Assembly (NCBI RefSeq): GCF_949628265.1
Contig: NC_088788.1
Coordinates: forward strand, 7,440,001 to 7,504,000
DNA length: 64,000 bases
Direction: 5' to 3'
Source: Cloeon dipterum
Lineage: Eukaryota; Arthropoda; Insecta; Ephemeroptera; Baetidae
The position numbers were made by a program, and so were the translations under genes. How positions within the stretch are numbered: the first letter of the stretch is position 1; every line of letters begins with the position of its first letter. The notes under the pieces are model-generated. The model worked only from the letters and a program-made list of their open reading frames with translations. It was not told the origin of the DNA and did not search any database. Shown here piece by piece: positions 10,568 through 62,247 of this stretch.

Positions 10568-10792
10568 ATTTAATATATTAAATTTTTTTAAATCACGCCA
10601 GGATATAAAATAAAACATTATTTTTATTATCAAAAAGGTTAAAATGTATTTAAGTCACACATAAATGCGCACGTTTGAGCATAAAATAGTATTTACAGGG
10701 GGATGACTCTCAGCACTCGGGACTCAAGGCACTTATGACTATTTACACTTGCAGCTTTTTTAGTCTTTTCACTGTTAATTAATCAAACGAGC

Positions 10793-13700
10793 CTACTTCT
10801 TGTGGTACCCTCCGTGGCCGCCGCCACCGCCACCGCCGGAGGAGTGGCCGCCGGCGTTGCCGAAGCCGCTGGAGTAGCTGTTGGAGGTGGAGTACGCCTG
10901 GCCGCCTCCGTGGCCGCCCGCAGCGCCATAAGAACCGTGACCGCCAGCGCCGTGGCCGCCGCCGACGCCAGAATCGTGGCCGCCACCACCCAGGCTGCCG
11001 CCGAATCCGCCTCCGTGGCCGCCGGACGAGTAGCCGCCGGCGTAGTCACCGCCGTGGCCGCCGGCCGAGAGTCCGCCTCCGTGGCCACCGACTGAGAGTC
11101 CACCTCCGTGGCCGCCGGAAGAGTAGCCGCCGGCGTAGTCACCGTGGCCGCCGGCCGAGAGTCCACCTCCGTGGCCGCCGGACGAGAAGCCGCCTCCGTG
11201 GCCTCCGGAGGCGTAACCGCCGCCGCTGGAGGCGTATCCGCTGTGGCCGCCGCCGCTAGAGAAACCACCTCCGTGGCCGCCGGCCGCGGAAAATCCACCC
11301 CCGGACGCGTATCCACCCCCAGAGGAGAAAGCAGCGGCGTTGTGTCCGCCCCCATAGCCGTCGGAGGCGTACGAGTCGCCGTGGCCGCCTCCGGAGGTAG
11401 CGTAAGCGCCGCCGCCGCCACCGCCTCCGCCGTAGTGCTCGACGTCATTGCCGCCTCCGTAGCCGCCGCCGAGGCCGCCGCCGTGGCCGCCTCCATGGCT
11501 CTTGTATGACTCCTTGATGGTCGGCACGTTGTGGTGCACGTGCTCGTCCACGTGGTGCACCGTGTAGATCTGGTTCTCGTGGTGCACGTCGTGGTGCAGC
11601 TCCGGCACGTGGATCCGGATGTGAACGCTGCGAAATTAATTAATTAAAATAGTGATTTAATCTTTCATCTAAATGTAAAGAAACATGAAGCACTTCTAAT
11701 TGTTTACTTGCATATTTCTTTAAAACAATAACTATTGTATTAAGCATAGTTATTAATTTAAAAAAATGAAATTAAGATTAATGATGGGAGTTTTAAAATT
11801 AATTTTAATCATTGGTCATTTTTCATTGTACTATTTAGATTTTTAAATAAATTTATGAAATTAAATTTGGGTTTAGATTAAAGATGACTTTATCATTGAT
11901 TATTTTCTCGTGGATTCCATCCAGTAAAAATTAAATAAAATGTCGTTACAATTTGGTTTTGAATCTCTGCATAGCACATAAATCAATAGTGAAAATAAAT
12001 TTAAAATTAATAGTGTCATAGAATTATCAACGTTATTTAAAATTTAGAAAGTGTAAACCCAAACATCCTCCATTCTCTTTTTAAATTTTCAGAGTGCGTA
12101 CACGCATGTCAATTTAATCCCAAAATAATTGGAATTATGCCTAATCACGTGCGTGTATATGAGTGAGTGAAAAATGATTTATGCGTCCGCGTGTAATACA
12201 TTTCCATCAAATTTTATTTTTTTAGAAAGCTGCTTAAAATGCAGCCGACAATTGTTGGCGTGACAATAGGTGATGCTGCCAATGCTGAATAATAAAAAAG
12301 CGTTTACACGCCCATTCCGGCTTTTAACACACACGTATTAGCGGTTAACAGAAAGCCGCAGACGTCGGCCTGGCATAAATAATAATAAGATATATCGTCT
12401 AGGCGTGAGAAATAAACGACTCTGCGGTCGAAACTCTTTTGTTTAAACAGGAGACTGACACTGCTGGATGCAATCGATACTCACTGTTCATGTCCGCCGA
12501 AGAAAAAGGCGCTCGCGATTCCGCACCAAGCCGCAAGCAGCAAAGACTGGATCTGTATGAGCAAAATTAAATTAAGAAGGCATGGAAAAAATTACAAAAT
12601 TGTTATTTGTCTTCTTCGTGATAGGTGAGTTCAAATCTTATAAAAATTACCGAAAAAATTCGTTAGTAAAACCCTTTTTTTAATATATGAGCAATATTTT
12701 TCCACAACTATCTCCTATAATTATTTTTTACTATTATCAAATTAGTAGTACTATAACTTGGAGCAGAGAAATTGCAGAAAACTGTTATAAATTGTTTAAA
12801 TACATACAAAACGCCAGAAGTGGAAAAATAAAGATAGTAGACACCCAGAAAACATAAATATATCGTTTGAGCTTTGTCTGTTATTTGGTAGCGTCTACTT
12901 ATAGAATTAAAATTTAATTTAATGTTTTGTAATTAATTTAAACATAAAAGATAATAAAATAATTTACCAAAAGAAAACCAAATTTAGCTTTTATTTATGA
13001 AGTTATAAAAAATAGCAACATGCAATTGAAACATTCTTGTCTGGAGCGAGTGAAATTGAACAAGAATAATTCCAGCAGACGACAGCGGTAATTATCGCTG
13101 CGAGTTCGTGATCGAGTTGGCTCTGGAATTCGTGACGCGTTCATTATTCCAGAGAGCAAGAGAGAAAATAATTTCGGACACGAAAGGCTGCACTGAAAAT
13201 TATTCTCTGCTGACCGCGTAAAAAATCACGAATTGACCGCGAACACGAAAATTATTGCTAATTTCTCTTCATGCCGTGCGTTGAATTGACTCTTAATTCA
13301 GGTTAAATATTTCAGTAAATATTTGCCCTCTTTTAAAAAATCTGAAATATTTAAAAACCATTTAAAAGCTCAAACGTTTAATTTCTCCTTTTGCCACGCG
13401 AAATTAACATTTAATTTGCAAGTAAATTCAGGCTGACACACGAGTAAGAAATTTCAGGGCGGTAATGTGTGAGAGAGTAAAAAGGTGTACATTATTATTA
13501 TTTCCACGAGAGTGAGTGAGAGAGAGAATTGAAGAAACGTGTGCATCCGCGGCGCGACTTTGAGATCGTGAGAATGGCGCGAACTTGAACGAACACGACG
13601 CCGGTGCACGAGATGCAGATCGTCATTAGCAGAGAAAGTAAAAATGAAAAACAAGATTTGATTTCCGACCCCCCGTGCGTGGATGAGTGCAAAACGACGA

Positions 13701-27669: not shown

Positions 27670-29539
27670 ATGTCTCTCGCTTTCCGCCTTGTGAGTACAA
27701 ATCGAAAAATATTATTTATTCAAACAGCTATTTCAAAACACTGTCAATTTAATTGTTATCAATTAAAATTTATTTTAATAGACGCTAGTTATTTATTTTT
27801 AAAATGTTTGGTACGTTTTAAATTTTCATATCTCTGGAGGAAGTCATTTTGAATGTTGCATAATTATTTGATTAGAGAATTCTGTAAATGTAGAAAATAT
27901 TGAGATTTGTTGACGCGTTTTGGTATTTTCCTTCTTAAAAAATATATCAGGAATGAGAGAATTGCGTTTTTACTTAATTTTACATAATTTGATTAACTTC
28001 TTAATCTTTGATTACTGTTTTTAATATAACTGAGGATTAAATTTAATTTTGCCAGGGTTTGGCGAGCGTTCTCGCGGTAGTGCTGGTTTCGTCCTGCGTT
28101 GAAGCTGGAGGCGGCGGTGGAGGCGGGTAAGTTTTTAATATTTAATCCTCTCCCGACAAACGAGAATTAATTTCATTTTTTGTTAAAAAAAAACAGACAC
28201 AAAAAGTACATCATCCATGTGCCGCTGAAGGTGAAGGTGCACCACCACACGCACACCGTTTACAAGCACATCTTCCACGAGGATGACGGCCACCACGGAG
28301 GCGGTGGAGGCGGCGGAGGTCACGGAGGTGGTCACGGAGGCGGTCATGGCGGAGGCGGCGGACACGACGCCGGGCCAGTTTATCAGATAATCTCAGAGGG
28401 TTATGGAGATTCTGGCAGCCATGGCGGCGGACACGGAGGCGGACACGGAGGAGGAGGTCATGACTCTGGACATGGAGGTCATGGAGGTGGTCACGGAGGC
28501 GGTCACGGAGGTGGTCACGGAGGCGGTCACGGAGGTGGTCACGACAGCCTTAAAGGTGAGATTTGAGACTTTTGTTGAGTTCAGTGAATTTAATTGTTGA
28601 ATTATTTCTTCAGGAATTCTGGCCCTTGTCAAATTGCACGGATCTGGAGGCCACGGCGGACACGGAGGAGGCTCTGGACATGGTGGAGGTCACGGAGGAG
28701 GTCATGGAGGTCAAGGAAAGGCTGTCACCGCCTTCGACTCGTACGGACACATCCTGGGGGCTGGATACTCGGGCAACCACGGCGGCGGCTACAGCTCTGG
28801 ACACTCTGACGGCGGCCACGGCGGTCACGGTGGAGGAGGAGGCGGCCACTCTGGAGGCGGAGGTCATTCCTATGACCTGGGTGGCCACGGAGGCTCTGGA
28901 GACCACGGAGGCGCTGGAGGACATGACGCGGGACACTCGTACGACCTTGGAGGTCATGGCGGAGGCGCCGGCGGCCATTCTGGAGGTGGTGGCCACTCGG
29001 GAGGCGGCCAGTCTTACGATTTCGGTGCTGGAGGCCACGGAGGCGGCAGCAGCGGCCACTCTTACGACCTTGGCGGCCACGGAGGATCCGGGAGCCACGG
29101 AGGTGGTGACGCCGGCGGCCACTCAGGTGGCGCAAGCTACGATTTCGGCGGAAGTTACGACCTTGGAGGCCACGGCGGCCAATCTGGAGGTGGAGGCGGC
29201 CACAGCTACGACCTTGGAGGCCACGGAGGCCAATCTGGAGGTGGAGGCGGCCACTCTTACGACCTTGGAGGCCACGGCGGCCAATCTGGAGGCGGCGGCT
29301 ACGACTACGGCCACTCTGCCGGCGGTGACCAAGGCCACAGCGGCGGCCACACCTCCGGAGGCGGCGGCGGCGGTGGATATGACCTCGGCGGCCACTCTGC
29401 TGGAGGCGGCGGCGGCCACTCAGGCGGTGGAAACGACCTGTCCTCGTACGGCGGCAGCGGCGGCGGCCACGACGGCGGCCACGGCTACGCGACCTCCTCA
29501 TACGCCTCGTACGAACGCAACTGCGAGCACCACCACTGA
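27670..29539 (+). CDS. Secreted glycine/histidine-rich cuticle-type protein 2
   Basis: Four exons, 27670-27690, 28056-28126, 28197-28555 and 28614-29539, encode 458 residues. Exon 1 gives MSLAFRL. Exon 2 completes the signal peptide (GLASVLAVVLVSSCVEA) and ends in a glycine run. Exon 3 carries the shared motif YIIHVPLKVKVHHHTHTVYKH, split here as IIHVPLKV and HHHTHTVYKH, then GGHGGGHGG repeats. Exon 4 holds repeats built on HSYDLGGHGG and ends YERNCEHHH. The single cysteine near the C-terminus is unusual in so repetitive a chain. AATAAA signals lie at 29809-29814 and near 29829. It is the only plus-strand member of the four-gene group and the only one with its repeat region split by an intron. 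A role in cuticle is likely but inferred from composition. Confidence 0.83.
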
Positions 29540-31464
29540 GAAAAATTGTTTAATTTTCGTTTTAACCGCCCAAAAACTATTTGATAAGCCGAGTGAATGT
29601 CGTCTCAGGTGCGAATCTGTCCGGGGCCCCCAAGTTCCTCCCGCAAAAATATGAAGAAATTCGTCCCCGTCCGCTAACTGGTATACTTGGTTCGCGACTA
29701 GTCTGACTGAATCATTTTTGCTCATCATTTTTACTGTTTTGTAAATAGCAGCCATCGTTTTTTACATATTGTATTTTGTTGTTGTAACCTACTGCTCTCA
29801 CTTTTATAAATAAACAACCGTTTTTGTAATAAATAGAACTATGTTTCCTTTGACGCAGTCTAACACCTCTGAACGCAACCGCACAACCGGAGCAGATCGA
29901 TTATCATTAGAGTAGAGCAGCAACTGTACAATTGAAAACGATCCTCATTTGCAATTATATTCTATTTCCACATGAGCAATTTCTATCTATATTTATACGT
30001 TCGAAATTTCTCTCCTCGTCCGAGAGAGAAAGGAATCATTTGACGTGATTCTCATGAAAATGTCCCTCTTTGGGAGCACAATGGACCGTTTCCAGAGTGA
30101 AAGGTCAGAATTCCTTTTTTATTCACTGCTTTGCGCGCCAGAAGCGAGAACGATGGAGCCATTAAAAGCCAAATGGAAAGACGACGTGCTTTATTTTTTG
30201 CCCTCTCTCAGTGAGATCGATGAGGAGGAAAATAAAATGTGTGCACGTGCGCCCACGAGGAGAAAATTATGATTATATTTTTCACACTCGTGAGGAGCGA
30301 TTCATCGCCGCCCAAAAGCAGATTGAAATGTCTGTGAAAAATAATCGAATAATTTAATTAATCTCTTGAAAGTTGTTGTATTATCACAATGAAACATTTA
30401 GATCAACATCTAAATTGTTTGACTATTTATTTAGTAGCATTAATTTTAAACAGTAATTTTGTTTAAACTTATAATTTATTTTTTATTTTTGTTTATGTAT
30501 TTAATATTTTATGATTTATTTTAACTTAATAAAATATTGTTTATAATATTAATTTATTTTTTAAATTTTATTTCAATTCTGATTTTATATTTTTTTATAG
30601 AAATCTAACACCTAGAAACCTAAGATTCACCAATAATATTTAAACATGATAAATAAATTTAAACCTGGCTAGACATCACATCTCTAGATGAAAGAAATAA
30701 AATAGAAATTACTCCAAACAAGTTTTTTATTAATTGTTAGTAACTTAAATATGTTAAATGAATATGGCTTCTACGAATCATTTTAATGAGTCATGTTAAG
30801 CTAAAGAAAGCAGTGATTTTAATGGGTTTTCCGATATATTAAAGCAAATATAGCTGGTTAAAAGAGGATCATTCTCCTATAAGCGGGAACTAATTTTGTA
30901 ATTTTAAGCAAAAAATTGGGTGTTGAAATAGAGACTTAAATTTTTTGAATTGTGCTATTGAGGCTATTTTTAAATCACGTATTCATCTTTTATTTATTAT
31001 TATCATCACATATTTTCCTCTCGTGTGTTCATCGTCTTGGTTAACTTTTTAATCCGTCTAACCGAAAGTCTGTGTTTTTCTCACGTTCAGCTGAAAAAAT
31101 GCGTGTGTTTTACGGTTGAGTTGAATTTTCGTGGTCGCGGGAGAGTGATGTATGCGGATAACTCGATTGCACGCAGCGTGATTTTTACTTTCTTTCTCGT
31201 GGCGGAGGGCGCATCTATTTGACTCTGCGCGGCGATTACTCGCTCCATTTCATCAGTCAGAAAACTGCGTGCGGTCCACTTTCCGCGCAACCCACACAGC
31301 CGTAAAATCTCTTTTCAAGCAAAAACCGTAAGATTTTTATAGTAAAATAAAAGGTTATCTACATTTATTGCAACAAAAATCACATTACAAAATAGTTAAC
31401 AGGTTGAAAATTAGAGTTTGTACAGTTTGAGGAACGTGTTGGATGATTTTTTTTGTCAGTCTAG
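29540..31464. other. 3' UTR and spacer
   Basis: The first 300 bp are the 3' UTR of Gly/His-rich gene 2, with two AATAAA signals. The rest is AT-rich, with GC-richer islands at about 29.86-30.33 and 31.0-31.32 kb. The last part is the 3' UTR of gene 3. No gene was seen. Confidence 0.5.
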
Positions 31465-32342: not shown

Positions 32343-33829
32343 ATTGCAGGTGTGTGCGTCTCCGAGAGAGGAAAAACGAAAAGTGCAGTTGCGGCGAAAA
32401 ATGCAGAAGCGTTTTATAGGCGGCTGTCCCGCCCCCCGCTCGTCCGCCCGCCCGCCGCGGACGCCTGTCAAGGACGGCCCGGCGAAGAAAGCAGGTGACA
32501 AAAAAGACGCACGAGAATGCAAAACTATCGCGTTTGTCCGATCGCCGAGTATCAGAGCGTTGCATCGCTCGCTTGCAGCCAGACATTGCTCCGCAGACAC
32601 TTTCCAAAACGCTTGTGTTGTTTGCACACAACGCAATTTCATTGTGTGTTGGTGCTGGACCACGCAGCGCGATGGCTTGAGCAACGCGTGCTTTTGCAAA
32701 AACCAGATGAAAACGAGAGCATAAATAATCGAGGCTTATGTAAGAACACCTATATATGAGTTGCGGGTAGACATTGTACTATAAGGGAAATTAAAAAAAC
32801 GAAATCAAGTTGAATTTATCACAATACTGTAAATCACATGGCTGTGTTAATATTTATAAAAAATAATAGTATTTTAATACTTATCATTAAAATTATATTA
32901 AAAAATATAAAATAAACATTAATAATATAAATAAATTAAAAACATAATAAATTTACTGTTAAAGTTTTTTTCCATTCTTTTTCTTTTAAGACGAATATTT
33001 TTTAAACAAATTTTTAGTTTTAAAATAGTAAGTTTACATTAACAAAAAACATTTTATTTTTCAATTATTTTAAGACAAAAATCAGAATTAGCATCAAAAC
33101 CTTTTTTACATTTTGAAAATATTCTAAATAAAATTGCAAAATTAAAATAAAAGAAATTTCCCTGTTACTTTGTTCTCTCTAATTTTATTGCAAACTGTGG
33201 AGAACGATATTTGCAGAAGCAACAGGTTTAAAATACATATTAATAACTGCTATGGATTTAACGATCTATGAAACGTTCTGCTTTTTCGGCATTTGTTGCC
33301 AGAGGAGAAAGGTGTTTGCATTAAGAAAGGAAATTCTGCACGGACTTTTTGCGAATTATGTCACCTCTCTATTCAACTTCTTGCTCACGAGAGAGTAATG
33401 ACCGCGCACATCTGCGGCGAGTGGTGTGCACAAATCATTTCCCCATTGTTATAAACTCTTCCGGCGGTAATGACCACTCGAAATCATCACTCAAATGGAA
33501 AACGAAAGTGGAGCGGTGGATTAAATGCAACATGTTTCAAACGGAGAGATCTTTTTAAAAATAAAAACTTTATTTTATTAACACTTTTGTGGTTATCGTA
33601 CAGCGATGCAGGTATCATAAATTTAATAAATCATTTCAGGACGTAGAAACAGGCGAGCAGCGTGGCACAAATGGCAGCGGGCACGGTCAAAACCACAACT
33701 AGTCACCTGAAAAAAATGCAGAAAAATAAAACTATTAAAAAGGAGAGAAGAAATAATTTCATTCGTATTAATATTTTCCCTTATTTTTCCTCGTTCTCTA
33801 ATAATTTTGCACAACCCCCAAGACAACAA
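32343..33829. other. Promoter of gene 3, spacer and 3' flank of gene 4
   Basis: The first 350 bp are the GC-rich upstream region of gene 3. About 32.8-33.3 kb is very AT-rich and empty. A GC-richer island lies at 33.3-33.55 kb. Minus-strand AATAAA signals near 33.57-33.59 kb probably end the gene 4 transcript. A possible extra 3' exon at 33.63-33.71 kb is discussed among the findings. Confidence 0.45.
32412..32418 (-). promoter_or_regulatory. TATA box of Gly/His-rich gene 3
   Basis: TATAAAA on the minus strand, 70 bp upstream of the start codon. Confidence 0.65.
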
Positions 33830-35062
33830 TTAAAATTTTTTATTAGACCTGCGCCAGGAGTGGTGGTCACCGTGGCTGTAGGAGTCAGCGTGGGCAGAAT
33901 GGTGACCCCAAGTGGAACCACCCTTGTCATCGTAGCCGTTTGAGTCTTGATGTTTGTCCTCGTGGATGAATGAGTTGTGCGCCTCCCCTCCATCCTCATG
34001 GCTCGAGTGGTGGTGGTCATCCACGTGGTTGTGGTCGGGGTAGTCGTGATGGTGATGGTCATGGTGGTAATGGTGGTCATAGTGGTAGTGGTGCCCTCCA
34101 CCACCTGAGTCACCCTCCCCTCCTCCTCCTCCGTGACCATGATCCTCGCCTGAGCCACCATGGTGATAATCATGCCCTCCATAATGGTGTCCTTCCCCTC
34201 CGGCCCCTGATCCACCCTCTCCTCCACCTCCTCCAGAATGTCCATGATCACCCCCTGAGCCCCCTCCGTGGTGGTGACCTTCCCCTCCACCTCCGTGGTG
34301 TCCTCCACCGCCTCCGGAATGACCATGGTCACCCCCTGACCCTCCTTCGTGGTGGTGACCTTCCCCTCCGCCACCTGAGCCGCCTCCCCCTCCTCCGTGG
34401 TGGTCGTCGTGCCCTCCGCCGCCTCCCCCTCCTCCGTGGTGGTCATCGTGCCCTCCGTAATGGTGGTGGTGATCACCTCCGCCACCCCCGTGGTGGTGGT
34501 CATGGTCCGAATGGTGGTGGTGGTGCGAGTGGTGGTACGAGTAATGGTCGCCGCCGTGCTTCACCGGCTCCTCCTTGTCCCACACATGTTTGTAGATGGT
34601 GTGCGTGTGGTGGTGCGTTTTGATTTTCAACGGCACATGGATTATGATTTTCTTCCTAATTAAAAATAAATTATTTTATTAAAAAAGTTAAAGCAGGCTT
34701 ACATTTAGAAAATTAAGTAATATTTTACTCTTCATAAATGGAAAAAAATGTTAAAAATAAATAAAATAAACAATTACTAACTGTCTCAACAGTAAAAATA
34801 CTGAATCTGATCATTAAATTAATTAAAATTTATTCCAGCTTGGCTTATATTAATTTTAATAATTTCAAAAAGTACTTACTTTTTAGCGGAGACCGAGACT
34901 ATGCATATTAGCAATAAAGGAAAGACCTGCAAAAATGTCAAATTAATTCCACTGAATACAATTTAGAAGCAGCAGTCGAGGCGTATTCCAAATAAACCGA
35001 TTCACTAGTCACAACATCACAGAAGGAGCGTCGTGCAAACTCACCAGGAGCACAATTCGCAT
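33830..35062 (-). CDS. Secreted histidine/glycine-rich cuticle-type protein 4
   Basis: Three exons, 35062-35045, 34926-34880 and 34655-33830, encode 296 residues. Exon 1 gives MRIVLL. Exon 2 continues the signal peptide (VFPLLLICIVSVSA) and a lysine run. Exon 3 opens KKIIIHVPLKIKTHHHTHT and IYKHVW, then long His/Gly blocks (HHHHHSDHDHHHGGGGG, EGHHHEGGSGGDHGHSGGG) and a less repetitive C-terminal third rich in His, Asp and Ser. Histidine clusters are denser than in the other three paralogues, so metal or pH-dependent cross-links are plausible but unproven. A TATA box lies 40 bp upstream of the ATG. The last codons lie on a GT that could be a splice donor, so the C-terminus is less certain. Confidence 0.78.
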
Positions 35063-52422: not shown

Positions 52423-53904
52423 AAAATTAACTGTTAGAAATAACCCCCGTGGAAAATTAAAAAAAAAATTATATAATTTCGGGCGAAACCCGTGTTGCGA
52501 AACTTGTTTGCCATGCAAATGATTTCATTCGATCGACATATATATTTTTTCTTCTCATAAAATTTTGAACGAACTTGGTTGTGATATTCAGAAGCAGGAA
52601 TAAGCTAGGGCAGGTGCTCATAATTTATTATTAAGAAGTCTCGGCTGGCTGATTGCGTTCCAGTGCACATATCAACGCCTGGCATTGCCATTTAAATCGC
52701 ACACAGGCGTTAGCTAGAAGAATTAAAGTGTTGAAATACATAGTAGCAAGTAAGGTTGAAGTGACGGCCTTCGATGTGGTGATAATAAAAATCTCTCGTG
52801 GCAGCGAAACGCACCAAGTTGTATCAAGCACTGGTTAAATGAGTTAGTCGTTAGTTCCAGTCTAATTTTAAGATATAAAATACCATATGACATTCAAATT
52901 AATGATAAATAATCCAAGCCAAGTGCACAATGTTATACGCAGCACTGTCTAATCATCCGTATAAATGTCTAAATAATGAATAATATTTTTGATGTCGGAC
53001 CAAAATGAAAAAAAATACGTGTAAAACTGCCAAAATTGTTCAGAAAGAGGAATAAAAATTCAGGAATCGTGTTAAACAGACACAAATTGTGGTTTTATTT
53101 TTCCAAATGATGAAAAACGGTTTACAAAATGATTTAGACAGTCTATGAAATATATATATAACTAAAAATAAATTATTTCAGGACAAATTTTCCTGTTTTT
53201 TCATTTAGAGTCACGTTAGGTTTAGACCCTTCAGGTTGTATTTGGCCTGAAATAATTCAATGCGCAGAAATTTTGGTCCAGCAACTCGACCAAAAACATC
53301 AAAAGAGGGGCTACTGTGTATCATGCCTTGGAAAATCGAAATTTCGACAAAAGGTTGCGAATGGTAACCTTGACCCAAGACTTTGTGGAAATTTAAACGT
53401 TGTTCAGGATCAAAAAGTATATTAGTTTATTAAAATTTCACAGGGCCTAGGGGATACATGGCTGAGGATTGGCACAATTTCGATTACTCGACCTTACCCC
53501 TGGGTCACTTTAATTAAAATAAATAAATCTGCACTGTTTTTGAACTGAAAATTCAAATTGTATAAGAAAATCAGCCATTATTTGCCTCATCGTCCCAAGC
53601 AAGATTTATTAACTGTAAGTGAGAAGTAGGCAACCCGCTAGACTTTCAGGTTGTGCGCGTTGCATTTTTGTTTCCGAGGTGTGATACAATCCAAAAGGGA
53701 TTGAATTTATTTTCCTAAGAAGTTTATAAGGATTTATTATTTTAAAATACAGCCTGCTGTTTTTAACCTTTTCAAGAACTGTTTTCAAAAGTGCCCGCAA
53801 CTCGATATTTTTACTTTACTAACGCGAACCTACATAAACAAAACATGTTTTGAATTAGTATCATTTTGTTTCAGTCTTTCAAACTGTTGAAGTCGAGGTC
53901 CAGG
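52423..53904. other. 3' UTR of acetyl-CoA synthetase and spacer
   Basis: Probably 3' UTR up to AATAAA at 53051-53056. Beyond this is AT-rich spacer. From about 53725 the sequence belongs to a duplicated unit whose second copy begins near 55457. Confidence 0.45.
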
Positions 53905-54790
53905 ATGGCATGCAAAACTGAATATATCAAGATCAACACTCCAGCTTCGTCGAACATGGAAAAGGTATTTGTAGAGAGTTTTAAGGTTACAAGAACAAAT
54001 TTATTCTTCTCCATTTTCCTCAGAAAATTAAGGCCGAATTTGATCGAGATTTCTATTATGAGTTGTGCAATGGCGTGTTTTACTCAAATATATTGTACCT
54101 GTTCAGCGTACTTGGTAACATTAGGATTTTTAAAAAATGAAAATTAATTAACATTGCTCCCCTGCGTAGTTGCCAACGAATTTGATTTGAGCTTCCTGCA
54201 ATTCTTGATTATGAACTCGATCCCAATATCGCTGGCTTTCCTCTTCAGCATTCCCGCTTCCGTAGGAGCCTTCAATTGTTTAATATTCTATGGATTCGTT
54301 GTCAACACTCTGGGCATCAAAGGGCCTGTTGAAAACACTCCCGACGCCTTCTACCTGTCCGGATTCTCTGATTTGTCGATTTGGTGGCACTTGGTCATTG
54401 ACTTTGGTCAGTTTTTAATTGTATATAATTACGTTCTGTTATTCACAAGTTTTTCTTATTTCAGTCTTTTGCATATTCTTCATCGGAATTCTCAAACATC
54501 GTGCATCCTTTCGTGCAGAAAGAACAGAAGTATGAAGTTCCAATTATGAGTTCCAATAAAAACAATTAACTGTTTGATAATATGTATTTTTAATTCAAAA
54601 TATTTGGTCAAATAGCGAAAACACGATTTGATAATAAAGATAATATAATCTGGTAAACATTCGACACAGAGTGCATCATTTATTAGGTATTTTTTTTTAT
54701 TTAATAGTCTCAACGTGTTGTGATTGTCCATACACTGGAATAAAAATTAAAAGTGCGCGTGAAATTCAAAACAAACCTCAAAATTAAAAC
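53725..54790 (+). repeat. Tandem duplication unit, first copy
   Basis: Sequence from about 53725 (GGATTTATTATTTTAAAATA) through the membrane protein gene to about 54790 matches 55457-56500 in order, including introns, UTR and flank (CAACGTGTTGTGATTGTCCA at 54711-54730 and again near 56432-56451). This is a segmental duplication of a whole small gene. The intervening DNA contains a younger MITE insertion. Confidence 0.8.
53905..54535 (+). CDS. Small multi-pass membrane protein, copy 1 (unrecognised)
   Basis: Four exons, 53905-53964, 54024-54114, 54170-54406 and 54465-54535, encode 152 residues. I do not recognise the family. The start (MACKTEYIKINTPASS) is polar. Hydrophobic segments follow at about 37-54 (FYSNILYLFSVLV), 58-80 (FLIMNSIPISLAFLFSIP), 82-100 (VGAFNCLIFYGFVV) and 121-140 (WWHLVIDFGVFCIFFIGIL), with a loop GIKGPVENTPDAFYLSG between the last two and a basic tail. 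So three or four membrane passes, no signal peptide and no known motif. AATAAA at 54555-54560 closes the transcript. The second copy at 55635 has the same exon phases and most of the same residues. Confidence 0.7.
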
Positions 54791-55456: not shown

Positions 55457-56500
55457 AAGGATTTAATATTTTAAAATACAGCCTGATGTTGTTAACTTTT
55501 TCTAAAACTGGTTACAAAAATGTCCGCAAGTCGATATTTGTATTTTAAGAAACGCGCACCTATTTAAACAAAACATGTTTTGAATTGGTATCATTTTGTT
55601 TCAGCTTTTACAACTGTTGAAGTCGAGGTCCAGGATGGCAAGCAAGACAAAATTTATCAAGATCAACACTCCAGCCTCTTCGAACAGGGAAAAGGTATTT
55701 GTAGAGAGTTTTAAGATTACAAAAAATTATCCTTCTCTATTTTCCTCAGAAATCAGAGGTCGAAACTGAACGAGATTTCTATCATGAGGTGTGCAGGGGC
55801 GTGTTTTACTCAAATATATTCTACCAGATCAGCGTATTTGGTAACATTTAGATTTTTAAAAATGAAAATTAATTAACATTACTCCCCTGCGTATAGTTAC
55901 CGACCAATTTAATTTAAGCTTTCTGCAATTCTTGATTATGAACTCGATCCCAATATCGCTGGCCTTCCTCTTCAGCATTCCCGCTTCCTTAGGAGCCTTC
56001 AACTTTTTCATGACCTATGGACTCATTGTACACAAGCTCGGCATCAAAGGGCCTGTTCAAAACACTCCCGATGCCTTCTACCTGTCCGGACTCTCTGATT
56101 TGTCGTTATGGTGGAACTTGGTCATTGACTTTGGTCAGCTATTAATTTTATATATACGCTCCTTTATTCACAATTTGTTCTTCTTTCAGTCATTTGCATA
56201 TTCTTCATCGGAATCGCAAGACGTATTCGCAAATATCGTGCATCCTCTCAAGCAGGAAGAATAGAAGTGTGAAGTTCCAATAAAAACAATTCACGGTTTG
56301 ATAATATTTTGTATTTTTAATTCAAAATTTGTGGTCAAACACGATTTGATAGTAAAAATAAAATAATCTGGTAAATATTAGACACAGTGTGTACTGTAAT
56401 TAGGTAAATATTTTTAATTTAACATATAGTTTCAACGTGTTGTGATTGTCCATACCCTGGAATAAAAATAATAACTGCGCATGAAATTAAAACCAAATTA
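55457..56500 (+). repeat. Tandem duplication unit, second copy
   Basis: Partner of 53725-54790. Matches include the 5' flank (TTTTAAAATACAGCCTG), AAACATGTTTTGAATTGGTA before the first coding exon, all introns and the 3' flank. Differences are scattered and several change residues, so the two genes are drifting apart. Confidence 0.8.
55635..56272 (+). CDS. Small multi-pass membrane protein, copy 2 (unrecognised)
   Basis: Four exons, 55635-55694, 55750-55840, 55897-56133 and 56190-56272, encode 156 residues. The open frame and all splice sites are kept, which suggests a working gene rather than a decayed copy. Compared with copy 1, the central membrane block (FLIMNSIPISLAFLFSIPAS) is identical. 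The N-terminal region and the loop after the second helix vary (MTYGLIVHKLGIKGPVQN), and the C-terminus is longer and more basic (ARRIRKYRASSQAGR). AATAAA at 56279-56284 follows the stop closely. The gene ends tail to tail with the caspase-NACHT gene, 271 bp away. Function unknown. Confidence 0.7.
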
Positions 56501-56543: not shown

Positions 56544-59500
56544 TCAATTCGTACAGAATTCCCAGTTAAAAGCGTAATCCAGAGCAGACTCTCCTTCGCT
56601 GCTCTTGACGGTGACATCGACGTTTTTGCTGAGTAACAGGTCGACCACGTCCCACCTGCGCCACATGCAAGCAAGCAAAAGGGCGGTTTCCCCTTTTTTA
56701 TTGCGGGCGTTTAGGTCGATTTGCCCTTCATCGATCAGCCAGCGCACCACTCGAAACGAACTCTGGTGTTTACGGATTGCTACGTGCAACAAGTTGTCAC
56801 CGTTTTGGTCCAGTTTCTTCACCAAATCCGAGTTTCGCTGGTGCAGCCGAGTGAACATGTTGAGATCGAACAAAGTCTTGCGCAGAACATTTTTGCCACA
56901 GTTTAAATGAGCTCCTTTGTCCAGCAGCTTTTGCATCAAGTCTAGATTTTGCCATTTCGCCGCGTAAAACAATGCCGTTTTCCCACACTTGTCTGCCTTA
57001 TTCACGTCGGCGCCTAATTCGAGCAGGACATTGGCCGCCTCCAACGAATCGGTGTAAGAAGCGAATATCAACGCTGTCCGTTTGCTCGTGTCGGTGGCAT
57101 CCACGTCCAGTTTGATTTTAATGACTAGCCAATGCAAGACCTCGACCGAATTGTGAATTGCTGCCAGGTGCAACGTGGTCTTTCCGTTCTCGGTTACCTT
57201 TCTAACCAATTTCTTGTCTTTTTCATGCAGCAGTTTGTTGATTTCTAAATTAAACAAGGCGTGATGCATCGCGTTTTTTCCTCTCTTGTCCGTTTTCTTC
57301 GGGCTGGCGTTTTTCCCCAGTAAATATTCCACGACGTCTAATTTGTTGAACCTGCATGCGAGCATCAAGGCAGTTCTGCCGTAGTGATCTTTGGCCTCAA
57401 GACTCGCTCCAAAGTCTACCAGCCACTGCACAACCAGCAAATGCCCCTTTTCCGCCGCTAAATGCAACGCTGTGGACCCGACGAGCCCTTTAAAGTCCGA
57501 ATTGAACCATTTTCCTTCCAAATCCTCGCTCAAGTCCCTTAATCGCCGCTCGTTCGCTCTGCTTATCCTCCAGATGGCTTGAAGGTTGGCCCCTGAGTTA
57601 GTCAAGCATTTTACGCATTTCAAATGTCCTTCGTCTGCAGCCAAATGCAGTGGCGTCGCCCCTTCTTTGTTTTTCAAATTAATGTCCGCGCCCATATTGA
57701 TACACTTGAGCAGTTCATTCAAATCACCGCGTTTTGCTGCAGAATTAATTCCGGATTTTCCTATTTTCACCACAATGGCTGCGTAGTTTGGCGCTTTATA
57801 CCAACAAAACTGTTCCGAAACCATGCTCAGTGCTGGTCTGCCTTGATTGTCCACGGCTTCGTAGTCTACCCCAACTTCCTCGACGAGGAAACGCACGAAA
57901 TCCACCACAAATGCTTTGTCTTTTCTAAAGGTCTGGAAGAAAATGTGCAAGGCCGTTTCGCCGTTGTTTGTTCTTTGGCTGGCAAGTGCATTACTTTTCT
58001 TGTGCAGAATTTTGATTATTCGCTTGGAAGCGTTACAAACGCAAGCAAAATGTAAAGCATTCCATCCATTTCGGTTTGTGGCCTCCACGTCGGCGCCCGC
58101 GTCAATTAACTCGATAACTAATTCCTCGTAGCAGTATTGGGTGGCGCAGTGCAAGGCCGTTTTCCCACTTTCGTCCTTGTAATTTACGTCTCCTTGCAGC
58201 ATGAGAAAGTGGTCTTTGCAAACCAGCATCGAGTCCCCAGGTAGAAGAAGAGTTTTCAGGTCGGCGCCTTCTTCCACCAGCCATCGACACATTTTGAGAT
58301 TATTTTTCAGAGCTGCCAGTTGAAGAGGACTCATGCCACCTTCCGTCTTGATCCGCTTTAAATTCGAGCTAATTGAAAGTAAATGTGCAGCAGTTTCCAT
58401 TTGATTACGGGCAATGGCGTGGTGGAAGGCATTCCAGTTTTCTTTCAATTCCGCTATTTCCAACGTTTCAGTGTCCCGGACGAATTGATCCGCCACTAAG
58501 AGGTACTTGACTATGTCCAGGTGTCCGTTTGCCGAGGCCACGATCAGAGGGTCGTGGGTTTTACCGAAATAATTCGCTACTCTGGCATTATTAGCGAATA
58601 AAATCTCGACGCACCTGATGTGTCCAGCCTCGCAAGAAGCATAAATTGCGTTGCGGTGGTCGTGAGTCGCATTTGGATCGCCGCCGTTCTCTATGAGCAG
58701 AGTGAGGACTTCAGCGTTCCCTTTTCGAGCGGCATCAAAAAGCTGCTCCTTTTTTCTGGTTTCGAACTGCATTTCTTGTATCAGAAGAGAGAATGCGCCG
58801 GAAAATTGATCATCAAGCCTCTTGTAGAGCTTGGCGGCGTTGTTTTCTAAAATTGCGTCCAACAGTTGACGCTGAATCTTTTTTAGTTTTCGCTCATCTA
58901 TTGCGCCCAGTTCTACCAGTCCAATAGCGATTTCTTCATTTTTAATTGCTCTGAGGAGCAGACGCGGCCCGTTTCGGATGCGAATAGGCCTTTCTTTGTC
59001 CAAGCAGAAGGATACGTTCGGTTTTAAAAGGTTGAAAATATTTTTCAAATCCTCACAGCACACAATATCGAGAAAATTATAGGGACTTGTGTCAATAGCC
59101 ATTTTCAACACTATTTCTGAGTGCTTCTCGAACTTATCTTCATTATTGTTGTAAAAATATGCGTCGACAAACCTTCTGCACTCTGCGTAATCCCACCATT
59201 GACAGCGGTCAAACATACGAAGACCAGATGTTCCAGATTCTTGAAAATCAATCAAGAATTGCTGAGCAGCGAGGAATTCGGCGAACGTCTGATGCAAGAA
59301 AGTGACCTCTCCGTCCAGAAAGGTCGCGATGCCAAAGTTGTTCATCCTTTCCACTTGTTCCATGCTGACGCCCTGGCCGACAAGACACTTTTCGCTAATA
59401 AACCGAGACGCTATGAGCCGCAGTGGAATCAAAGCCAACTCGACCTTCTCCACGGACACCAGATAATTTCCATTTTCCCTTTCCAGACAAAATTTCACTT

Positions 59501-62247
59501 TCTGTTTCACCACTCTGTTGTACATATTGTACAAATTGTCCTCAAATCCGCATTCAGCCAGCATGGAAAGGTGCAACGGGTTTCCCAGGAAGGTATTCGC
59601 CACGAAACTCTTTAAGAAAAGTCTGTTTTCCTCTTCATTTCTCTTGGCCACTAAATGCAGGAGCTCCTTTTGTTTCGTTTCATCGAAAGACCTAATTGAA
59701 AGGGACACTGCGTTTTGAGCAACTTTATCCCTAATTTCGTCCGCCTCGTGGGGCCTCGTTCCTATCCACATCGGAAGCCCCCTTTCCTTTAAAACCCTCA
59801 CCAGCCCTACCACCTTTTCTCGATATTCAGGGCAAATTTCGTCAAATCCGTCCAAGAACACAATAATTTTGCTACTCGCTATCCAATCGGAAATTTCCTT
59901 TGAAGAGTAATTTGACGCCATTGCGAGAAATTCCACCTCATTCACCTGATGTTTCTTCAGGAAATAGATCCTGTATTTGGGAAGCACAATTCGCAAAATT
60001 TTGACATCGCAATCTGCTTTGCCGAGTTGGAACGCGATTTCCCTGAGAACGGTCGTTTTTCCTGAGCCAGCGACAGAACTCAAGAGCCACACACGATTTT
60101 CCTTCAGAGTTTCTTTCGCCTCTTGCAGCAAATCATCGAAAGTCAACACTTGTTCAGCAGAGTTTTTACCGCGTTTCAATTTGAAATCCGGTTTGACGAA
60201 AGACCGCGGCCATTCAGGGAAATCGAGGAGATGCTGCAGCGTTGAATTGAGCAAGACGTTCCCTTTTGTTTCGCAAACTAGAAGAGGGTATAAAAGCTTT
60301 TGAAGACTTTTACCTTTCTTGAGATCATCGCCGTTGAGGATTTCAATCAACTTAGCAATATGCCCTAGAAAAAAAAATAAAATTTTAGGTGAATAAAAGG
60401 GGCGGCACTGTTTAAAATTACGTTTTTCTTTTAAAACTAGAACAAGCCATCCGCTGTGATTTGTAGCCAAGATTTCATAGCTGTTCTGGCGAAAATTAAG
60501 CTGCAATTAAATTTATGAATAAATAAATTTATTTATTTTAAGTTGAGATCTTACGTAATCTGATTCAATTTTTGGCTGGTCCAATATGAAAAAGATTTTC
60601 GGTTTTCCAATCCAGGCTTCATTGTGCGGGCCACAAAATCTGTGCAAAATGTCTGTAATTGGTTTCTCTTCGCCATCCACCAGCACGCAGATTTCTTTCT
60701 TTGGGATTTTCATGAATTGCGAGTCGGCTTGTTTCTCATTAATAATTTTTTCGCTCACTTGGCCGAACATGCAAGTCAAAACGCAGCCAACATCCTCGTC
60801 AGAATTTGTAACTAAATATGAATTCGGTCAAAATTGCAAGAAATCTAATGAAATCTCTTTACCATCATTGAAAAGCAATTCAATGGCTCTCCCACTTAGT
60901 TTCCTCTTACTGGTCTCGAAGTGTAAGTTTTGACTTAGAGCTCTGTACATTGCCGCCACTGAATCGTCATTTGAAATTTCGTGCAAGATGAAGGCCCTCC
61001 TTCCTCGCAGGTTCTTACCCGAATCCGACCGCCAGGAGTAAAAGTCGGAAACGAAAATAATGTTCTTCGTATTCCCAATCCCGTCAGTGAAATTATTAAT
61101 TTTTGTTGGTTTCTGATTCCTGGAAAATTTAATTTTAATTAAAGACAAATTAATGCTTCATTAACTTTTTTTTAGAATATTAAACTCACTTTGAAATATA
61201 GAAGAGTGCATCCTGCGAAAATAACTTCGCTTCAGGCGTTTGGCCGTCGTGTTTTTGCGCCCCCAGGTTGTAGCCTCTGGACTTTACGTGGATTCGCCGC
61301 TGAACTGAGGATAGGACGGCCAAAAGCAGTTGGTCTTCTTCCATCGAGTTTAGAACGCAACAAAATGCTTCAACAAACCACGATCCGCAATTTGCATCTC
61401 GATTTGATTGGGTTTCTGAGTAACAAATAACCATTAAAAAAGATTTAAAGAGTTATTTAATCTAACTCACTTTCAACCGTCGAATAAAATATGACCAAAT
61501 TATGAATTTCGGGGTCAAAAGTAATTCTACACGAGTTCCGATTGTCATAATCACTGCAGTCGGGTCTCGGGCATCTCATTTTTGCGTCTTCAAGTTCCCC
61601 TCGACAAGGCTGCAGAAATTGTTATTTAAATTAAATAATATATATCTCGGATCGTCGATTGAAAATTAAACTCACGCCGAAGTTGACGAGTTTCAAACAT
61701 TTATCGAATCCATTCAGTCTTTTTAGGGACTGGAATATTTCATCCGTGGTGAAATAAATAATCATATCATCCTGGTCGCAGTGGTCGGTGTAAATTACTC
61801 CATCTTCGGCACCGTGCGAGAGAAAGAAAAGCACAAAAACATCGGGAATGTCTGCATAAAAGAGCGTTTATGTTTTTAGAAAGTGAATATATTTCAAACT
61901 CGAACCTTTGAAGTTGAACAATGTAAAAAGCTTGTTGTTGTCAGAGAGAAGCAGCAGCAAATTTTCTTTATCAACTGACAAAAGATCGCGGAAGTTGCAG
62001 TTTCTCTGCTCCTCAAAGGTCGACCTCAGGTTTTTCACGTCAACATCATCGCCTTTGCGAACAACATCTTTGCCTTTGTAGTCGTAGTGGACGACCAGAA
62101 CCCAAACGCTAATTGTAAGAAAAGCAATATTTATCTTTAATAAATATAAAAAATAAAAATAATAATAATTTACTTTTCTGCACGTCTGGTCACGAGGTGC
62201 CCGTCTATAGAAGACTCAAAAAATCCCAAGTTCGCTGGACCTGTCAT
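56544..62247 (-). CDS. Caspase / pseudocaspase / NACHT / ankyrin-repeat protein
   Basis: Nine coding exons (62247-62174, 62108-61906, 61851-61676, 61609-61471, 61415-61190, 61119-60863, 60811-60555, 60500-60422, 60364-56544) give 1743 residues. Domain 1 (about 26-272) is a caspase: RKGDDVDV, LSHG (His105), PCRGE (Cys153) and, in p10, SNRDANCGSWF. Domain 2 (about 285-470) is caspase-like (LRGRRAFILHE, GKPKIFFI) but has CMFG and LDQP where the catalytic His and Cys should be. A NACHT ATPase follows with Walker A AGSGKTT (Lys573), Walker B IIVFLDGFDE (637-646) and winged-helix FLHQTFAEFLAA (826-837). From about 1010 to the end lie ankyrin repeats (GATPLHLAADEGHLKCVKCL). It resembles an NLR sensor fused to its effector protease, presumably cytosolic. 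The ATG chosen is the first in frame; an acceptor at 62276 implies an upstream exon, so a prodomain may be missing. Confidence 0.85.

Follow-up and report, generated by a model that had tools for sequence, protein, structure and literature searches.

INTRODUCTION

Proteins that combine a protease with a NACHT ATPase in one chain are known from bacteria and fungi. Bacteria have metacaspase-NACHT-WD40 proteins, and NACHT is reported in 15 bacterial metacaspase sequences of one survey (PMC3501461). In fungi, NLRs with S8 or CHAT protease modules control gasdermins (PMC12881547), and, according to a survey of fungal NLRs, STAND proteins may have started out with an all-in-one design (PMC4986451). 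The NACHT-ankyrin combination is known in Neoptera and fungi (PMC3499355), a cnidarian survey reports 35 Pfam domains found with NACHT, of which the several named include CARD and death domains, not caspase (PMC8260672), and a 2024 survey describes arthropod NLRs as having no N-terminal effector and for that reason leaves arthropods out of the phyla in which an inflammasome might exist (PMC11508797). Here we describe a gene on the minus strand of a 64-kb stretch of the genome of the mayfly Cloeon dipterum (contig NC_088788.1, positions 7,440,001 to 7,504,000; hereafter the window) that encodes a caspase domain, a second caspase-fold domain, a NACHT ATPase and an ankyrin array in a single protein.

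A first-pass annotation of the window had read this protein as a self-contained inflammasome-like or cell-death switch from an insect-like genome. The host is indeed an insect (Ephemeroptera, Baetidae). Accounts of insect immunity usually leave NLR signalling out. The annotation's own remark that insects are generally described as lacking canonical NLRs agrees with the 2024 survey, a statement on arthropod NLRs that the mayfly family presented below does not fit. The analysis supports the annotation's interpretation overall, and an inflammasome-like or death-switch function is a reasonable inference.

RESULTS

One chain carries a caspase, a pseudocaspase, a NACHT ATPase and an ankyrin array

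The gene model and all positions were obtained by splicing and translating the DNA letters of the minus strand. The gene extends over 56544..62247 from start codon to stop and comprises nine exons encoding 1743 residues. Profile searches of this product recover Peptidase_C14, NACHT and ankyrin repeats, the three families that the annotation had named. Caspase domain 1 (residues 1-280; 61098..62247, spread over exons 1-6) contains the Peptidase_C14 match at residues 28-244 (E 2.1e-19) and is followed by domain 2 (residues ~295-525; 60201..61055), the NACHT match (residues 564-706; 59658..60086; 28.4 bits against a cut-off of 26.7) and the ankyrin array (residues ~1001-1740; 56556..58775). Pfam and alignment place Walker A (GSGKT) and Walker B (FLDGFDE) within the NACHT match. 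The order of N-terminal effector, ATPase with both Walker motifs and C-terminal repeats is the tripartite layout of NLR/STAND proteins, and the union of a caspase-clan domain with NACHT in one chain is that of the bacterial metacaspase-NACHT proteins. The Pfam matches of the window protein (E up to 0.1) include no LRR, the sensor part being ankyrin, which places the protein outside the strict animal definition of an NLR; nor do they include CARD, PYD or BIR, the linkers of NLR inflammasomes, or a DED of the kind at the N terminus of c-FLIP-L.

Among the matches listed, the best PDB sequence and structure matches of the protease are animal caspases, and metacaspases may stand further down the list. 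Horizontal transfer from bacteria is not favoured, given these matches and the eight introns of the gene. The NCBIfam and PADLOC matches were rejected as ankyrin or weak ATPase, the NCBIfam ones lying far under their cut-offs.

P0001, a protein predicted independently on a Cloeon contig of 219 kb, aligns colinearly with the window protein over residues 1-1366 with a single gap. At the level of sequence, the existence of a one-chain caspase-NACHT-ankyrin gene in this mayfly is confirmed. The two proteins are 91-96% identical by region (4.5-8.8% of residues differ), a divergence between two Cloeon dipterum sequences that may reflect cryptic species or strong polymorphism.

Domain 1 keeps the catalytic dyad, and domain 2 is a pseudocaspase

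Conservation was read from an alignment of 45 proteins. Of 60 family proteins, 44 were included alongside the window protein, and 16 were omitted as fused or truncated. Domain 1 is predicted to adopt a caspase fold. Its catalytic residues His105 and Cys153 are kept in 45/45 and 44/45 members, respectively, although the mean majority fraction over the domain is only ~0.5-0.65 by part, and Arg42 (position from the caspase alignment) is Arg in 42/45. The Walker A Lys and the Walker B Asp are present in all 45. The catalytic residues and Walker motifs that the annotation named are borne out. A further point, absent from the annotation, is a departure from standard caspases at one residue of the S1 pocket: the active-site motif of the window protein is GPCRG and not QACxG with its S1 Gln. 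Elsewhere in the genome, a cluster of Peptidase_C14 exons with no NACHT close by (C5:27147932-27160033) includes a locus with the standard QACRG (L001), indicating that ordinary caspases exist beside the GPCRG family.

The second caspase-like domain of the annotation stands as a predicted fold and not as an active type of caspase. Specifically, none of the 45 members has Cys at the catalytic Cys place, which the GKPK-FF anchor puts at residue 437, and no His occupies the SHG place, with the correspondence to active caspases read by eye from motifs and one short alignment. Structure prediction of caspase 1 together with domain 2 gave a predicted template modelling score (pTM) of 0.85, which, judged by pTM alone, suggests that the two domains hold a fixed relative placement. 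The caspase-8/c-FLIP-L structures 3h11 and 3h13 are among the structure matches; other caspases score equal or higher.

The family is large and clustered

The Cloeon dipterum genome (190 Mb, 10 contigs) contains at least 101 NACHT matches in a profile search in which 106 of 119 candidates were scored. Contig C4 has 46 of them, all but one beyond 29 Mb (45), and contig C2 has 34, of which 30 are at positions below 5 Mb (hand count); the pile-ups near one end of these two chromosome-sized contigs (C2, 0.8-4.7 Mb; C4, 29-36 Mb) account for 75/101, and a single 445-kb cluster for 18. At least 37 of the 101 have a caspase exon (domain 1 or 2) upstream of them in the same orientation, either no more than 6 kb away or inside the locus that was read; this is a lower bound, obtained with 47 of 404 caspase candidates scored. 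Open frames of at least 500 residues are found at 88/101 matches (hand count). We read 20 loci, picked among good matches, and every one shows four segments of caspase 1, then two of domain 2, then NACHT, with no stop in any of the seven. Neocloeon has the same domain order.

Three protein searches, each of which scored some thousands of word-sharing candidates, returned 63, 69 and 40 rows, or 109 distinct proteins. Both C14 and NACHT appear in the Pfam columns of 63 of these (hand count): 19 from Neocloeon triangulifer and 44 from Cloeon, the latter drawn from more than one assembly and so not equal to 44 genes. All 40 rows of the third search, which was queried with members without the long ankyrin part, are Cloeon or Neocloeon. 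None of the rows not labelled baetid (P0061-P0063, P0078, P0080-P0099) has both domains, a search in which distant relatives may be missed and the representation of other mayflies is uncertain; P0061-P0063 and P0080 have NACHT and ankyrin with no caspase match. The caspase-NACHT-ankyrin family is therefore large and, in these searches, occurs only in two baetid mayflies. The annotation knew of no described insect protein with this order, and the titles and excerpts listed from the open-access full-text literature likewise hold no description of the mayfly family; what changes is that the window protein is one of many and not a single odd protein.

Some members differ in their N-terminal parts. 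P0020, P0021, P0026, P0029 and P0034 form one clade with an extra region of ~200 residues (1 to ~210; YFAYCLDTKTK.NYFIVPS...), which in P0021 and P0034 lies outside the Pfam best stretches. Pfam assigns two C14 stretches to P0021 and three to P0002. Outside the family, the metagenomic NACHT-ankyrin protein P0061 has weak SprT-like and metallopeptidase matches, under the cut-off, ahead of NACHT and is possibly another protease-NLR fusion.

Probable separate expansions and faster change after NACHT

A tree of 53 rows was built by quick search and rooted at the midpoint; 14 of its 50 inner branches are weak. The window protein and other Cloeon rows, 32 in all, fall on one branch (support 100) and 16 Neocloeon rows on another (99). 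A mixed older group joins three Neocloeon rows to Cloeon P0054 (94), and within it P0048 pairs with P0054 (100); Neocloeon P0076 stands apart on a long branch. With genus-specific branches and a mixed group, the family is most likely older than the Cloeon/Neocloeon split and was then expanded separately in each genus.

The median ratio of non-synonymous to synonymous substitution rates (dN/dS) between paralogues, taken over the 46 or 47 of 190 pairs with dS 0.02-1, is 0.39 in caspase 1, 0.36 in caspase 2, 0.33 in NACHT and 0.71 after NACHT. Among nine paralogues of the C4 cluster, the corresponding ratio of uncorrected counts (pN/pS) is 0.46, 0.41 and 0.40 in the same three domains, 0.69 in the second half of the STAND region, and 0.94 in the linker and first ankyrin repeats (bootstrap 0.75-1.23); the highest 50-column window reaches 1.32 (ten paralogues). 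This contrast is as expected if the effector and switch are conserved and the sensor diversifies, but it does not amount to formally testing for positive selection.

DISCUSSION

A proposed self-contained receptor and the readings that compete with it

In STAND proteins, the repeats keep NACHT shut until a ligand arrives, whereupon nucleotide exchange yields a NACHT oligomer that gathers the N-terminal effectors. The explanation we favour, with somewhat better than even confidence, is that the mayfly family consists of all-in-one NLR-type receptors with an ankyrin sensor, a NACHT switch and an active caspase with a cis pseudocaspase, likely acting in cell death or alarm. The ankyrin repeats would recognise either a ligand or a host protein that has been disturbed, and binding would trigger nucleotide exchange and oligomerisation of the NACHT ATPase. 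Domain 2 would serve as a built-in cis dimer partner of the active caspase, as c-FLIP-L does for caspase-8. Caspase 1 would then be activated by proximity and cut cellular targets through limited proteolysis, and the immune outcome would most likely be the start of cell death or alarm. Because the caspase effector carries its own pseudocaspase partner, a CARD/PYD adaptor would not be needed. The chances are about even that baetids have an R-gene-like set of tens of self-contained death receptors, in which a cis caspase/pseudocaspase heterodimer under a NACHT-ankyrin switch acts as an adaptor-free inflammasome with its own cleavage specificity.

Several observations weigh against the receptor explanation. 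The S1 pocket, to which the Gln of QACRG belongs and in which two arginines, R42 and R203, accommodate Asp at P1, is altered: the Gln place is Gly in 41/45 members, and residue 203 (position from the caspase alignment) is Arg in only 26/45. Substrate preference is therefore probably unusual in this family, and protease activity cannot be taken for granted. In P0048, a Cys stands one column past the catalytic place of domain 2 (1/45). P0026, in which Ser replaces the catalytic Cys and Walker B is altered, may be a copy in decay or one with a regulatory role. No caspase exon was found for 64/101 NACHT matches, in a lower-bound count of caspases and with no need for every NACHT to belong to the family. 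At locus L056, caspase-1 dN/dS is 0.64-1.00 against the other loci, and in the nine C4-cluster paralogues pN/pS falls to only 0.59 (0.45-0.76) in the next ankyrin repeats; the selection contrast itself comes mostly from one paralogue cluster, from counts left uncorrected and from pairs that are not independent. An AATAAA occurs in intron 7. The genome has a single CARD match, which is not in the window protein, and so no link to the known adaptor path is visible. Finally, a genome search gave no match to gasdermin, with the positive control also silent, so that its absence is not established.

The altered S1 pocket suits the alternative that caspase 1 is weak or dead and that the family comprises regulatory decoys, which bind, block or activate ordinary caspases in the manner of c-FLIP under NACHT control. 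Besides Gly in 41/45 and the loss of Arg203 in 19/45, this alternative draws on domain 2 being a pseudocaspase already. However, the near-complete retention of His and Cys in a domain that otherwise varies, the retention of Arg42 and a caspase-1 pN/pS of 0.46 weigh against this alternative, and we consider decoys unlikely.

The same parts could also serve non-immune signalling, in development, moulting, or egg or sperm recognition, and have expanded for other reasons; NACHT-ankyrin combinations with no assigned function do exist in Neoptera (PMC3499355). Separate expansions in two genera, clustering and a faster-changing region after NACHT are instead typical of recognition repertoires, and a non-immune role appears a little less probable still than decoys.

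Exon structure and other features of the window

All eight introns are GT-AG, and their phases fit as a single frame, in keeping with the nine exons in consistent phase first proposed. All exons were placed by splice reading on the minus strand. Exon 1 (62174..62247) opens with the start codon at 62247, and exon 2 (61906..62108) has a weak donor, GTTCGAGT. Exon 3 (61676..61851) carries the SHG motif with the His105 codon (61814-61816), and exon 4 (61471..61609) the PCRG motif with the Cys153 codon (61604-61606). The caspase small-subunit part (STVE...GSWF) lies in exon 5 (61190..61415), as alignment with caspase-3 also indicates; exon 6 (60863..61119) contains the end of caspase 1, the linker and the start of domain 2, and exon 7 (60555..60811) the pseudocaspase core. 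Exon 8 (60422..60500), with the conserved ATNHSGW motif also seen in the family alignment, is only 79 bp long and was accepted because the frame holds only with it; an 8-exon model broke the frame and was replaced. Exon 9 (56544..60364) encodes NACHT and the ankyrin array, in agreement with Pfam.

The AATAAA in intron 7, and the fused or truncated database predictions within the family, could mean that the caspase exons and the NACHT-ankyrin exon are two adjoining transcripts joined by a gene-model artefact. We regard this as very improbable, since introns 6, 7 and 8 measure 51, 54 and 57 bp and leave hardly any space for a transcript end and a second promoter, the phases form one frame, the same order recurs in the 20 loci and in Neocloeon, and P0001 was predicted separately. 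That many members, possibly the window gene among them, are pseudogenes or mobile-element cargo would suit the copy number, the clusters and P0026, but is scarcely credible beside the long open frames at 88/101 matches, the stop-free segments at 20 loci and the median dN/dS of 0.33-0.39 in the caspases and NACHT.

A small plus-strand gene encoding a hydrophobic protein (MNSIPISLAFLFSIPAS...) is present as two copies in tandem (53854-54549 and 55584-56264), which end just downstream of the caspase-NACHT gene. Long low-complexity Gly/His-rich frames lie at 10786-11643 (minus strand), 28171-29651 (plus) and 33784-34675 (minus), the last two with a common stretch like IHVPLK.K.HHHTHT.YKH; they perhaps encode cuticle-type structural proteins.

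Comparison with known systems

The family represents an insect lineage with a large NLR-type repertoire whose effector is built in. Cloeon dipterum is amenable to laboratory rearing, and a one-chain system would be a simple one in which to ask how NACHT oligomerisation activates a caspase and what a cis pseudocaspase contributes. It would also bear on whether receptors of this all-in-one type have arisen time and again across bacteria, fungi and animals.

The vertebrate NLR inflammasome with caspase-1 shares with the mayfly protein a NACHT switch that leads to a caspase; the mayfly protein differs in having no CARD/PYD Pfam match, in carrying the caspase in the same chain and in using ankyrin in place of LRR. 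Compared with the caspase-8/c-FLIP-L heterodimer (PMC11121540), the mayfly pair resides in one chain, has no DEDs and is fused to NACHT-ankyrin. The fungal protease NLRs resemble it in their N-terminal protease module, and ankyrin is among the repeats they use, whereas S8 and CHAT are not animal-type caspases and the fungal partners are gasdermins, for which the mayfly genome gave no match (control silent; PMC12881547). The NACHT-ankyrin proteins of Neoptera and fungi share NACHT and ankyrin, in insects as here, to which the mayfly family adds two caspase-fold domains; the excerpt of that report mentions no caspase (PMC3499355). The bacterial metacaspase-NACHT-WD40 proteins likewise unite a caspase-clan protease, a NACHT ATPase and repeats in one chain, whereas the mayfly protease has animal caspases as its best listed matches, is followed by a pseudocaspase and ankyrin repeats, and occurs in an insect (PMC3501461). 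Thus, the all-in-one protease-NLR is a kind already known, and what is new here is that the host is an insect and that the protease resembles animal caspases and has a pseudocaspase in cis.

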